In this document: positions 11,704 to 57,136 of the stretch, one piece after another
How the letters are laid out: every line of letters begins with the position of its first letter
How positions within the stretch are numbered: the first letter of the stretch is position 1
NCBI GenBank assembly: GCA_002708825.1
Contig: PAPF01000026.1
Location: forward strand, 62,001 to 126,000
Direction of reading: 5' to 3'
Origin: Phyllobacteriaceae bacterium
GTDB taxonomy: Bacteria; Pseudomonadota; Alphaproteobacteria; Rhizobiales; Rhizobiaceae
Length of the DNA: 64,000 nucleotides
Made by a program: the position numbers and the translations under genes
Notes under the pieces: model-generated
Database searches by the model: none
Told to the model about the DNA's origin: nothing
Seen by the model: only the letters and a program-made list of their open reading frames with translations

Positions 11704-13343
11704 CAGGCCTTCCTCCGCGCGCTCATGACAATTCTCAGGAGACCGTGCCCGGCGACGCCGAGCGCCGCGGCGCCGACGGCCAGAAGCCCGATCAGGTCCA
11801 TCCATGCGAAGCCGTCGCGTCCCGGCAGGTAGAAGCCGGCCACATTGGCGAGCCTGCCGTCCTTCGCATGGCAGGAATCGCATTTCAGCGCCTCGTCGGC
11901 CGACGCCACCATGTGCGTGATCGGCCAGTACATGTAGGTGTCGACGAAGTCGAAAGACCCGGAGTATTCGCGTCCGGCGGCCTTCATGCCCGCATCGATG
12001 GCCTTGGCCCAGTCGAAATTTGTCCAGAAGGCGGTGTCGGACTCGGGTCCGAAGACATTGGTCATCACCAGCCGCTTGAACTGCGTGTCATAGGCCTGGC
12101 GGCCCTCCATGCGCTTGAACGGCCAGATGCGCGAGTCCGGGTCGGCGGGCGAGCCGGGAATGCGGTTGATCTCGACCACGCCCGACGGGTCGATCGTGTC
12201 TTCCTGCTTGGTGTAGCCAACCTGTCCGTTGAACCAGGCATAGTGCGGCGTCACGTCCTCGCCCCATTCGAAATCGCCCTTGGTCGACAGGTAGGTGTGC
12301 AAGTGGCGCCCGTCGCCCTGGGTGTAGTTCTCCTCGCCGTAGGGCTTGCCGTCCTTCATCTTGCCCGCCGTCGACCAGTCCCACTTCGTCTTGGTGGCGA
12401 TGCCGCCCTTGGCGAATTCGGGAATGTGGCAGGTCTGGCAGGCCACGCGGTCGGTGTGGTCGTTCAGCTTGATCGCCAGCAGCGGGTTCGACCCGTCATG
12501 CGGCGCGGTTCCGTGGCAGGATTCGCAAGTGGCCACATCGCGGCGCTCGCCGGGCTTGCGGGTCGTGCCATGGCCCTTCGATGTCTGGTCGCCGGCCGCG
12601 TTCACATGGTAGCGGCTGCCCGCCCAGTTGTGCGCCTCCGAGACGTGGCAGGTCGAGCATTGCATGTCCGCCCCGTCCTTTGCCATGTGCACGTCGACAT
12701 GCTTCGACGGGTCGAACAGCGCCGACGACAGGTCGCCATGCTTCACGTTGTCGCCGCCGCCGCCATAGAAATGGCACTGGCCGCAATTCTCCGCCCTTGG
12801 CAGACCGACGCTCATGGCAGCCTTTGACAGGTCGACCGCCCAGGCCTTGGCGCCGGTAATGGTGGAGCCCTTCACCGGTTCCGGCCCGGTTGCCACGTGG
12901 CCTGCCGCAGTGGCGATCTTGGTATACTGGCCGCTCTGGTCGTGACAGATCAGGCAGTCGACAGCCGTTTCCTGCTGTGGCGGCCCGGCCTTCATGTCGG
13001 TCCAGCCATAGCCGGCATGGCAGCTTGTGCAGCGCGGCTCGTTTGACGCCACATTGCCGCAGAACGAGTTGATGACCTCGGACTTGCCAAGCACCTGCCC
13101 GGTGACAGGATGCTGGTATTTCCAGGTCCAGTGGATCGAGCCCATCACCTGTTTCGATGCTTCGGTATGGCAGGCCAGGCAGGCCTTCGTCACCTCCGGC
13201 CCGGAGGTGAACGCCTGTTTCAGCGCTTCGAACTTCGAGTGATCTGCCGTCGCCGAGGATCCTTTCTCCGCCGCGGGAGCCGAAACGGCCGCCGCCACCA
13301 GAACAAGGAAGCCGAGGAATGCCTTTACGATTGTCTTCCGCAT
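11703..13343 (-). CDS. Octaheme tetrathionate reductase family multiheme cytochrome c
   Basis: A 546-residue periplasmic c-type cytochrome. After a signal peptide (MRKTIVKAFLGF to APAAE) there are exactly eight CxxCH motifs: CLACH, CTSCH, CLICH, CGQCH, CSTCH, CESCH, CQTCH and CDSCH. The eight-heme count and spacing match the octaheme tetrathionate reductase (OTR) family. Shewanella OTR reduces tetrathionate, and also nitrite and hydroxylamine in vitro, so the true substrate is open. A C-terminal hydrophobic helix (LIGLLAVGAAALGVAGHGLL) would anchor it to the membrane beside the cytochrome b. AGGGAGG decides the ATG at 13343. A perfect FNR box lies 72 bp upstream. Confidence 0.88.
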   Translation of the reverse strand: MRKTIVKAFLGFLVLVAAAVSAPAAEKGSSATADHSKFEALKQAFTSGPEVTKACLACHTEASKQVMGSIHWTWKYQHPVTGQVLGKSEVINSFCGNVASNEPRCTSCHAGYGWTDMKAGPPQQETAVDCLICHDQSGQYTKIATAAGHVATGPEPVKGSTITGAKAWAVDLSKAAMSVGLPRAENCGQCHFYGGGGDNVKHGDLSSALFDPSKHVDVHMAKDGADMQCSTCHVSEAHNWAGSRYHVNAAGDQTSKGHGTTRKPGERRDVATCESCHGTAPHDGSNPLLAIKLNDHTDRVACQTCHIPEFAKGGIATKTKWDWSTAGKMKDGKPYGEENYTQGDGRHLHTYLSTKGDFEWGEDVTPHYAWFNGQVGYTKQEDTIDPSGVVEINRIPGSPADPDSRIWPFKRMEGRQAYDTQFKRLVMTNVFGPESDTAFWTNFDWAKAIDAGMKAAGREYSGSFDFVDTYMYWPITHMVASADEALKCDSCHAKDGRLANVAGFYLPGRDGFAWMDLIGLLAVGAAALGVAGHGLLRIVMSARRKA

Positions 13344-13414
13344 GAAATCCTCCCTCCATGCCCGCCATGTCCGCGAGCATGAACACATTGAGAGATGAGC
13401 ATGGAAAAACCGGC

Positions 13415-13532: not shown

Positions 13533-15095
13533 ATGACACAGACAGCCCATCCCGATACCGTTCTCATCATCGACTTCGGCTCCCAGGTCACGCAGCTGAT
13601 TGCCCGGCGCGTGCGCGAAGCCGGGATCTATTGCGAAATCGTTCCCTTCCAGTCGGCCGAGGAGGGCTTTCTCCGGCTGAAGCCGAAGGCGGTGATCCTG
13701 TCCGGCGGCCCTGCCTCGACGACCGAGATGGGCAGTCCGCGCGCGCCCCGGATGGTGTTCGACAGCGGCCTGCCGGTTCTGGGCATCTGCTACGGCCAGC
13801 AGACCATGTGCGGGCAACTGGGCGGCAAGGTGGAGAGCGGCCATCATCGCGAGTTCGGCCGCGCCTACCTGGAAGTGCACAAGCCTTGCGCGCTCTATGA
13901 AGGCGTCTGGGAAGTGGGCACCCGCCACCAGGTCTGGATGAGCCACGGCGACCGCGTGACGGCGCTGCCGGAGGGCTTCGAGGTGGTGGCGACATCGCCG
14001 AACGCACCCTTCGCGGCCATCGCCGACGAGGAGCGCCGGTATTACGCGGTGCAATTCCATCCGGAAGTGGTGCACACCCCTGACGGCGCGAAGCTGCTGT
14101 CCAACTTCGTCCACCGGATCGCCGGATTGAAGGGCGACTGGTCGATGGCCGCCTACAAGGATCAGGCCATTGCCGCCATCCGCGAACAGGTTGGGGACGG
14201 AAGGGTGATCTGCGGCCTGTCCGGCGGGGTCGACTCCTCCGTTGCCGCGCTGCTGATCCATGAAGCCATAGGCGACCAGCTGACCTGCATCCTCGTCGAC
14301 CACGGCCTGATGCGCAAGAACGAGGCGGCCGAGGTGGTCGCCATGTTCAGGGAGCACTACAACATTCCGCTCGTGCACGTGGATGCGGCCGATACCTTCA
14401 TCGCCGCGCTGGAAGGCGAGGCGGACCCGGAGGTCAAGCGCAAGACCATCGGCCGGCTTTTCATCGATGTCTTCGAGGCCGAGGCGAAGAAGCTGGGCGG
14501 GGCGGATTTCCTGGCCCAAGGCACGCTCTACCCCGACGTGATCGAGAGCGTCTCCTTCACCGGCGGCCCGTCCGTGACGATCAAGAGCCACCACAATGTG
14601 GGCGGCCTGCCGGAGCGCATGAACATGAAGCTGGTGGAGCCGCTGCGCGAACTGTTCAAGGACGAGGTGCGCAAGCTGGGCAGGGAATTGGGCCTGCCGG
14701 ACCATTTCATTGGCCGCCACCCGTTCCCCGGTCCCGGCCTTGCCATCCGCTGCCCCGGCGGCGTGACGCGCGAGAAGCTGCGCATCCTCCAGGAAGCGGA
14801 TGCGATCTATCTCGACGAGATCCGCAAGGCAGGCCTCTACGACGCCATCTGGCAGGCCTTCGCCGTGCTGCTGCCCGTCCAGACGGTGGGCGTCATGGGC
14901 GACGGGCGCACCTACGAGTTCGTCTGTGCGCTGCGCGCCGTCACCTCGGTCGATGGCATGACTGCGGATTTCTACCACTACGACATGGAATTCCTCGGCC
15001 GCGCCGCCACCCGCATCATCAACGAGGTGCGCGGCATCAACCGCGTCGTCTACGACGTCACGTCCAAGCCCCCCGGCACGATCGAATGGGAGTGA
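13533..15095 (+). CDS. guaA: GMP synthase (glutamine-hydrolysing)
   Basis: A 520-residue cytoplasmic enzyme aminating XMP to GMP with glutamine and ATP. The N-terminal class I amidotransferase has the nucleophile in [11 protein letters not shown] and the His-Glu pair in VQFHPEVVH. The ATP pyrophosphatase domain carries the P-loop [12 protein letters not shown] near residue 230. The C-terminal dimerisation domain ends [13 protein letters not shown], the invariant end of the family. Length is normal. It is a stand-alone gene: the upstream neighbour is divergent and the downstream region holds repeats. Confidence 0.98.
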
Positions 15096-15096
15096 G

Positions 15097-15174
15097 AACC
15101 CGGTTGGCACGTCAGTGCCAAGCCGATGATCCAGTGAATCATCGGCAGGGTTCGAACGCGGGGGAGCTGCGAAT
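15097..15174. repeat. Palindromic repeat element, copy 1
   Basis: A 78-bp unit starting two bases after guaA's stop. It contains two hairpins in a row: TTGGCAC/GTGCCAA with a 4-base loop, and CCGATGAT/ATCATCGG with a 7-base loop. These are followed by GGGTTCGAACGCGGG. A second copy starts 133 bp after the start of the first. The structure is that of a REP-like intergenic element; it could also help protect or terminate guaA mRNA. Confidence 0.85.
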
Positions 15175-15229
15175 GCAGCGGGCCCCCCGCAGCGGCAAGG
15201 TGCACGCGGAGCCATGGCGAAGCGCAGGC

Positions 15230-15306
15230 AACCCGGTTGGCACGTCAGTGCCAAGCCGATGATCCAGTGAATCATCGGCAGGGTTCGAACGCGGGGAGCT
15301 GCGAAT
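15230..15306. repeat. Palindromic repeat element, copy 2
   Basis: A 77-bp copy identical to the unit at 15097 except for one fewer G in the poly-G run. The 55 bp between copies is GC-rich and includes GCGGGCCCCCCGC, itself able to fold. The two copies and spacer fill most of the 279-bp gap between guaA and the next gene. Confidence 0.85.
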
Positions 15307-15374
15307 TCACGACCTGATGCCCGTGATTGCGGGGCGGGGGCCGGCGCGCGGGGGAAAAGCGCGTTGCCGCGCGT

Positions 15375-55969: not shown

Positions 55970-57136
55970 ATGACCGCGACTTTCTCCACCGGCCGTCGTC
56001 CGGATATCCTCTATGGCATAGGCGGGATGGCCGGCATGGCCGCCGGCATGGGCATCGCGCGGTTTGTCTATACGCCAATCCTGCCCTCGATGATGGATTC
56101 GCTGGGCCTGTCCGCCTCCGACGCGGGCCTGATCGCCTCGGCGAATTATCTCGGCTATCTTGCCGGTGCGCTGATGGCGGCCATTGGCAGCAGCCGGGGC
56201 GGTGAACGGGCCATCGCGCTTGCCTCGCTCGTCGCTTCGGCCGTGCTGTGCGCCGCCATGGCCTTTTCCGGCAGCCTTGTCGCCTTCCTGGTTGTCCGTT
56301 TCCTCGCCGGCGTCGCCAGCGCCTACACCATGGTTTTCCTGTCCTCCATCGTTCTGGGAAAGGCCGCCAGCGCCGGCCGCCCGGGAATCCAGGCGCTGCA
56401 TTTCGCCGGCGTCGGCATTGGCATCGGCGTTTCCGGTCTCATCACCGGCGCGGTGTTCATGGCAGGACTCGGCTGGCGCGAAAGCTGGCTGGCCGCCGGG
56501 ATCGTCTCCGCGGCGCTCGCCGCAGCGGCATTGCTGATCGAGCGCGCGCCGAAGGCCGCACCGCGCCCGGCACCTGAACCCCGTTTCAAATGGACCGCGC
56601 CGTTCGCGCGCATCATCGTTGCCTACGGCCTGTTCGGCGGGGGCTACATCGTCACCGCCACTTTCCTCGTCGCCATCGTTCGCCAGAGCGAAGGCGGACC
56701 GCTGTTCGAATCGGCGGTCTGGCTGGCGACCGGCATCGCGGCTGCCCCGGCTGTCTGGGCCTGGGGCTATGTCCAGCGCCGGCTTGGACTGACCGCGACA
56801 TTCGCGGTGGGATGCGTCGTCGAGGCCATCGGGGTCGGCGCATCGGTTTCCCTTGGCGGCCATGCCGGGCCGCTGATCGGCGGCATCCTGCTGGGCGGCA
56901 CCTTCGTCGCCATCACGGCATTCGGACTTCAGGCCGGACGGGCGCTTGCAGGCGATGCGCCGCGCCGTGCCTTCGCCTACATGACGGTCGCCTTCGGCAC
57001 CGGCCAGATCATCGGCCCGCTGCTGGCCGGCTACGCCGCCGACTGGACCGGCAGTTTCACGGTTCCGTCGCTCGGTGCTTCCGCCGTCCTCCTGCTGGCT
57101 GCCGCCGCGGCGTTGAGCGCGGGGAAGATCCGGTAG
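55970..57136 (+). CDS. YbfB/YjiJ family MFS transporter
   Basis: A 388-residue carrier with twelve helices, of the small YbfB/YjiJ group (MFS_4). GMGIARFVYTPILPSMM is the TM1 signature, GLIASANYLGYLAGAL TM2, and FAYMTVAFGTGQIIGP TM11. Substrate unknown. Stops 12 bp before the end of the deacetylase gene, which runs the other way. Confidence 0.88.
   Translation: MTATFSTGRRPDILYGIGGMAGMAAGMGIARFVYTPILPSMMDSLGLSASDAGLIASANYLGYLAGALMAAIGSSRGGERAIALASLVASAVLCAAMAFSGSLVAFLVVRFLAGVASAYTMVFLSSIVLGKAASAGRPGIQALHFAGVGIGIGVSGLITGAVFMAGLGWRESWLAAGIVSAALAAAALLIERAPKAAPRPAPEPRFKWTAPFARIIVAYGLFGGGYIVTATFLVAIVRQSEGGPLFESAVWLATGIAAAPAVWAWGYVQRRLGLTATFAVGCVVEAIGVGASVSLGGHAGPLIGGILLGGTFVAITAFGLQAGRALAGDAPRRAFAYMTVAFGTGQIIGPLLAGYAADWTGSFTVPSLGASAVLLLAAAAALSAGKIR

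Follow-up and report, generated by a model that had tools for sequence, protein, structure and literature searches.

The window analysed here is the whole stretch of 64,000 nucleotides. Around its position 15,000 the gene guaA is followed, on the same strand, by an array of palindromic repeats. The features are:

13533 to 15095, + strand: guaA, glutamine-hydrolysing GMP synthase (NF000848, E=1.6e-241)
15093 to 15196, + strand: element copy 1, full length, A type (positions 1-102 of 102 of covariance model R1)
15096 to 15153, + strand: three-way junction of copy 1 (unconstrained DNA fold and 43-copy consensus)
15096-15101 paired with 15148-15153, + strand: P1 stem of copy 1, 6 pairs
15104-15110 paired with 15115-15121, + strand: hairpin 1 of copy 1, 7 pairs
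15122-15130 paired with 15138-15146, + strand: hairpin 2 of copy 1, 9 pairs, with the 7-nt loop CCAGTGA (15131-15137)
15154 to 15157, + strand: conserved GAAC joint of copy 1
15154 to 15190, + strand: GAAC joint and third hairpin of copy 1 (DNA fold and alignment)
15158-15164 paired with 15184-15190 (outer) and 15166-15170 paired with 15175-15179 (inner), + strand: third hairpin, G+C-rich
15203 to 15228, + strand: remnant of the third hairpin of a sister subfamily (C type), between the copies (blastn)
15230 to 15309, + strand: element copy 2, lacking TGAG and truncated in the third hairpin (repeat comparison, blastn and R1)

Upstream, guaA adjoins a gene on the opposite strand for an octaheme c-type cytochrome of the tetrathionate reductase family (window 11706-13346, - strand; TIGR04315, E=1.4e-180). 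Beside the latter lies a gene that, judged by eye, looks like one of cytochrome b561 type.

The first-pass annotation had placed here a 78-bp double hairpin in two near-identical copies 133 bp apart. The duplication and its spacing were borne out: positions 15097-15163 are identical to 15230-15296 (67 bases), a difference of one G follows, and beyond it the match continues to 15309 (98% over 81 in blastn). The element itself is larger than had been thought, about 100 nt (15093-15196), and begins 4 nt earlier, at 15093, so that its first codon is the TGA stop of guaA (15093-15095). This anchoring on the stop codon is the main feature that had been missed. The guaA stop is native, because the NF000848 profile is matched through to its end position (512/512) at the final residue of the protein. 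The near-identity of the copies holds only as far as copy 2 extends, which has no TGAG and is broken inside the third hairpin. Because of this break copy 2 scores low against R1 (44.8 bits, E=1.2e-6), compared with 95.8 bits (E=3.4e-16) for copy 1, which is among the model's own 43 training rows.

Both palindromes noted earlier in each copy are real hairpins, although the P1 stem and the third hairpin had been left unlisted. The unconstrained single-stranded DNA fold of 15093-15196 has a z of -5.8 on the + strand and -7.0 on the - strand, and none of 200 shuffles folds as well. The fold of the window copy alone agrees with the consensus structure of 43 copies. These make up the alignment A1, drawn from 73 usable copies, those left out being for the most part nearly identical ones at lepA and members of divergent subfamilies, and from A1 the covariance model R1 (102 positions) was built. 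In A1, 98.1% of 1438 cells pair according to a five-helix structure that comprises P1, the two hairpins and the outer and inner parts of the third hairpin. Changes on both sides are seen in 24 of the 34 pairs, among them every one of the 21 pairs modelled in P1, hairpin 1 and hairpin 2. No measure of pairing or covariation is reached by any of 500 shuffles, and slid versions of the structure pair at 31-45%. The core of the third hairpin, GGGAGCTGC..GCAGCGGG, is invariant for the sole reason that the copies were gathered by it.

The element ends in TGAG..CCGG, with CCGG as the 3' end in most copies, and these ends are not inverted repeats. Its 5' boundary is sharp, a G-rich stretch giving way to TGAG: a G occupies positions -1, -2, -3 and -4 in 39, 38, 40 and 33 of the 43 copies, respectively.

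A search for further copies, as the first-pass annotation had proposed, found many in relatives and none elsewhere in the genome of the window. In that genome (4.7 Mb) the R1 matches at E <= 0.01 are the two window copies only, and blastn gives only weak short matches beyond the window locus. Blastn among 61 relatives found clear copies in two genomes, G025 and G030. With R1 at E <= 0.01, matches occur in 11 of the 61 relatives, the own genome counted, and reach 27 in one of them (G030); weak ones near the limit (G015, G041 and some in G031) could be chance matches or distant relatives. The same search matched 19 of 20 genomes that had been picked mostly as known carriers. When genome contigs were searched with the third-hairpin motif GGGAGCTGC N2-8 GCAGCGGGNCCC, at least 80 loci were obtained, of which by inspection at least 74 have the element, a variant or a part of it. 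Record titles name Mesorhizobium for at least 54 of these at least 74 loci and, for the others, other Hyphomicrobiales or Alphaproteobacteria, Proteobacteria or bacteria. Six of the at least 80 loci are matches to the core without the rest of the element. Excluded were L058, L062, L079, L089, L090 and L108, which lack the element, L093 and L112, which are cut by contig ends, and L123, whose 5' part is replaced. Among the matches listed, 73 copies were usable, the window included, with two contributed by L098. Tandem arrays of equal or different subfamilies recur (L119 4349-4600, L107 3851-4050, L364 and L168).

An origin from plasmids, phages or viruses was considered and rejected. Among 72,556 plasmid records neither of two queries had a match with E up to 0.01, a Mesorhizobium copy as the single query had none among 50,697 phage records, and the sole match in viral contigs is without the remainder of the element.

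Among the matches listed, the TGA of the element is the stop codon of a coding-like open reading frame on the same strand in 46 of the 73 copies. Judged by their C-terminal ends, 16 different genes are involved; 22 of the 46 copies are at lepA and were probably inherited. No coding-like frame enters the element in 25 of the remaining copies. In L072 the upstream frame reads into the element and stops at +8, and in L064 the stop was counted at +1 merely since the start had been set one base early. A second sample of copies found with the covariance model, which partly overlaps the 73-copy set, comprises 69 copies from five genomes, of which 23 are anchored on a stop. It was taken from 75 R1 matches, fetched from part of the places matched in the 20-genome search, by removing four matches duplicated between overlapping loci and two weak ones.

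By a crude rule for open reading frames, the GGTGAG sites with the element divide into 18 at stops, 18 intergenic and 4 coding, versus 12, 129 and 197 for GGTGAG sites without it in the same loci, these being loci chosen for carrying the element. The stop-to-intergenic ratios of 18:18 and 12:129 differ with a Fisher p of 1e-7. For GGGTGAG the enrichment is weaker (18:17 with the element versus 6:21 without, p=0.034).

The comparison of orthologous gene ends at guaA, lepA and pheT showed that these genes are mostly without the element. All 30 guaA loci, in relatives and the own genome, end in ..TIEWE*, and R1 finds the A type only behind that of the window's genome. At pheT, 29 of 30 loci were read; they end in ..LR plus one residue, with TGA, TAG or TAA as the stop. 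The element follows only the G030 copy according to R1, the 28 relatives without an R1 match have their stop at the corresponding codon, and the TIGR00472 profile is matched to its last position (798/798) at residue 299 of 300. The native stop has been kept, since both for guaA and for pheT the relatives that lack the element terminate at the same codon as the genes that carry it. The lepA relatives end in KMGD* or one codon later (KMGDN* and similar), and of 30 loci one (G031) has an R1 match; at this gene the element may have cost the protein one residue. guaA was rejected as a general hot spot, as no stop-anchored copy of the 46 other than that of the window has a guaA C-terminus. A loose core pattern was also set aside. 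It had flagged G024 and G031 at guaA, G015 and G018 at lepA, and G031 and G027 at pheT, none of the six being supported by R1, and it missed the true pheT copy of G030.

In a sister species (G001) the same guaA stop is followed by a tandem of the C-type subfamily, which has a short third hairpin and an 83-bp unit. This type, of which six sequences were collected, escapes R1. A pattern for it matched 10 of 61 genomes, the match in G003 being doubtful by its context. It has two matches in G001, both behind guaA, and none in the window's genome. Many C-type copies likewise begin on a stop codon. The remnant at 15203-15228 resembles the C-type third hairpin and agrees at 91% over 23 bases with the two G001 sites behind guaA (C55:73468 and 73551). 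The simplest history would be one ancestral array of both types that was trimmed differently, the window's genome having kept an A copy, a C remnant and a truncated A copy, and the sister species its tandem C copies.

Filled and empty sites point in two directions as to the origin of the TGAG. Several relatives without the element also have TGAG at the end of guaA, which suggests that the TGAG was in the target. In one clean pair (L254 versus L268) the element is nested within itself: a gene ending in ..IAAYTAGQ* is followed by an uninterrupted element copy in G062, and its ortholog in G030, ending in ..IAAYNAGQ*, by an interrupted one, in which 61 bases starting with TGAG replace the five bases between GAACGG and AGCTGC. 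Here the comparison suggests that the TGAG came with the element, at odds with the guaA site. The replacement of 5 bp in this pair involved no target-site duplication, and neither such a duplication nor a terminal inverted repeat was seen at the sites compared. The element also lies inside a host repeat, TCCTCGGG-ACAAG-CCCGAGGA, at five places in G030 (L262-L266) and two in G062 (L278 and L279), and it again replaces the five-base loop. The composites are near-identical, suggesting that element and host repeat multiplied as one unit. The host repeat itself looks like a CGTC REP, a label given from what is described of these repeats in PMC3733652.

The element has a length of about 80-110 nt; its 5' end lies on TGAG and is preceded by a G-rich stretch. 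It occurs at many unrelated sites with an exact 5' boundary, is present at some orthologous gene ends and absent at others, nests, forms tandems and has a compensated fold. Most probably it is an interspersed DNA element with several hairpins that is non-autonomous and belongs to the Hyphomicrobiales (Mesorhizobium and its kin); its copies would be spread by an activity supplied in trans. This activity would act on single strands or hairpins and would no longer be linked to the element, or may never have been. Insertions at gene ends would survive, since they leave the native stop codon in place. The 3' UTR would then open with the structure that directly follows the stop, and this may protect the 3' end of the mRNA or slow down ribosomes. 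As the own genome has one locus only, we infer the mobility in the window's genus, in which a single array remains behind guaA that would once have held both subfamilies.

Alternatively, the element might be a cis-acting RNA of the 3' UTR that is kept by selection at its sites and acts on termination, mRNA decay or the end of transcription, any mobility being minor or long past. Its placement next to the stop on the same strand and the maintenance of its fold by compensatory changes agree with such a role. The sense strand appears to matter somewhat, since at paired positions G.T exceeds A.C in A1 (18 versus 5, p=0.011) and in the larger set A2 (45 versus 27, p=0.044). However, the A1 cells comprise 1393 Watson-Crick pairs, only 18 G.T and 27 other mismatches, and G.T would seem too rare here for a structure held mainly as RNA. 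Moreover, the element is missing from most of the orthologous genes, and half of its non-coding copies borne by GGTGAG lie away from stops. No rho-independent terminator or terminator-like site was found at the element. Between 15000 and 15500, Rfam 15 gave three matches up to E=10, the best with 17.6 bits against a gathering score of 63, and no family was accepted. A cis-acting RNA is therefore regarded as unlikely.

The reading as a non-autonomous DNA element raises the question of its relation to known palindromic repeats. In PMC3733652, REPs are described as single hairpins of 20-40 bp with an unpaired GTAG or CGTC tag. The GTAG ends often supply a stop codon; the CGTC REPs, found chiefly in Alphaproteobacteria, seem to have no transposase of their own and show an 8-9 bp stem starting with AT and a loop of 4-5. 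The element shares with both classes that it is a short palindromic extragenic repeat found mostly downstream of genes. Unlike the GTAG REPs, it is about 100 nt long, has several helices, starts with TGAG and has no unpaired GTAG; nor was a Y1 tyrosine transposase flanked by the repeat found in the tested carriers. Unlike the CGTC REPs, it has no CGTC tag at either end and the loop of hairpin 2 has 7 nt, and in G030 and G062 a repeat that is CGTC-REP-like by description is instead its host site. It also differs from a MITE, its ends TGAG..CCGG not being inverted repeats and the one clean pair having no target-site duplication.

Other intergenic repeats of rhizobia are known and largely unexplained (PMC2573895 and PMC5082802). 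The RIME, the Sm-repeats and the A/B/C motifs (PMC2573895) are, like the element, interspersed rhizobial intergenic repeats with a shared sequence and structure and an unexplained function. The palindromic Br-REP1 and Br-REP2 of Bradyrhizobium are likewise found in 3' UTRs and are transcribed in part, Br-REP1 being the middle one of three stem-loops; by eye their consensus is unlike the element, and the sections of PMC5082802 at hand describe no anchoring on stop codons. The best R1 match in S. meliloti pSymB (1.68 Mb, of which 200 kb were covered) has E=0.88. The Bru-RS1 and Bru-RS2 elements of Brucella have a length of about 100 bp. They too are repeated palindromic elements, from the same order. 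No description of the element was found in Rfam or in searches of an open-licence library of papers.

The first-pass annotation had likened the repeat to a REP or small mobile palindromic element and had suggested looking for a linked REP-associated transposase. The likeness holds in that the element is palindromic, interspersed, in multiple copies in relatives, nested, and present or absent at orthologous gene ends; it fails with respect to the transposase and the tags. The REP-type transposase family PF01797 occurs in 9 of the 61 genomes and in none of the 14 that carry an R1 or C-type match, two of which (G003 and G015) are doubtful carriers. When six Y1 proteins were compared by phmmer with 180 loci, most of them element-bearing, one weak match was found (L085, E=0.0012), which looked spurious when its reading frame was judged by eye; the search recovered 3 of 5 control loci. 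Since PF01797 is missing from the tested carriers and the GTAG and CGTC tags are missing from the element, the latter is not to be counted among RAYT-linked REPs.

It might still be a classical REP/RAYT or TIR/TIRYT system, whose copies were moved by an IS200/IS605-like Y1 transposase. The element is indeed rich in hairpins and extragenic, with a fixed short motif at one end, and its consensus GGGGTGAG fits the degenerate GGGGWSAS motif that PMC3733652 gives for the TIRs beside TIRYT genes. Because the motif is degenerate the fit is weak, and the link to TIRYT is a lead only. The transposase may have been lost from these genomes, or PF01797 may be present in the high-copy genomes G062, G063 and G070, which lay outside the search. 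Nevertheless, the element lacks a GTAG end, its copies do not flank a Y1 gene as inverted repeats, and the enzyme search gave nothing in carriers beyond the spurious-looking match. The GGGGWSAS-like repeats that do adjoin a Y1 gene, in G037, read GGGGTCAGACCCC and are unlike the element. A classical system of this kind is accordingly thought quite improbable. In G037 itself, which belongs to the same order, the Y1 transposase gene (L159 1278-2120) is flanked by several such GGGGTCAGACCCC repeats, as described for TIRYT elements.

A local duplication that arose by chance or in the assembly and has no wider meaning might be argued from the array being the sole locus in its own genome, but this reading is refuted by the structure and by the copies in many genomes.

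Within the reading as a DNA element spread in trans, a more specific possibility may be put forward tentatively, as one that we hold to be doubtful: it could be a miniature element with homing to stop codons, its insertion machinery recognising a G-rich stretch followed by TRAG and relying on an enzyme other than a Y1 or a classical TIR transposase. The 46 copies on a stop versus one read into, the native stops of pheT and guaA, the 5-bp replacements and the Y1-less tested carriers are compatible with this. If so, copies would land on native stop codons and leave the protein unchanged. Rhizobial genomes are rich in intergenic palindromic repeats of unexplained function and origin. With its sharp 5' end on stop codons, its record of covariation, a pair of empty and filled sites and Y1-less tested carriers, the family offers a handle on what moves palindromic repeats that lack a transposase, and on whether a structure after the stop alters termination or mRNA decay.

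A tRNA relic or tRNA-derived repeat was rejected, the fold of the element having no cloverleaf; a resemblance to tRNA had rightly been dropped at the outset. The sole tRNA called in the window, by ARAGORN, is a tRNA-Gly(tcc) at 56627-56725 (+ strand), which at 99 nt is unusually long for a glycine tRNA.
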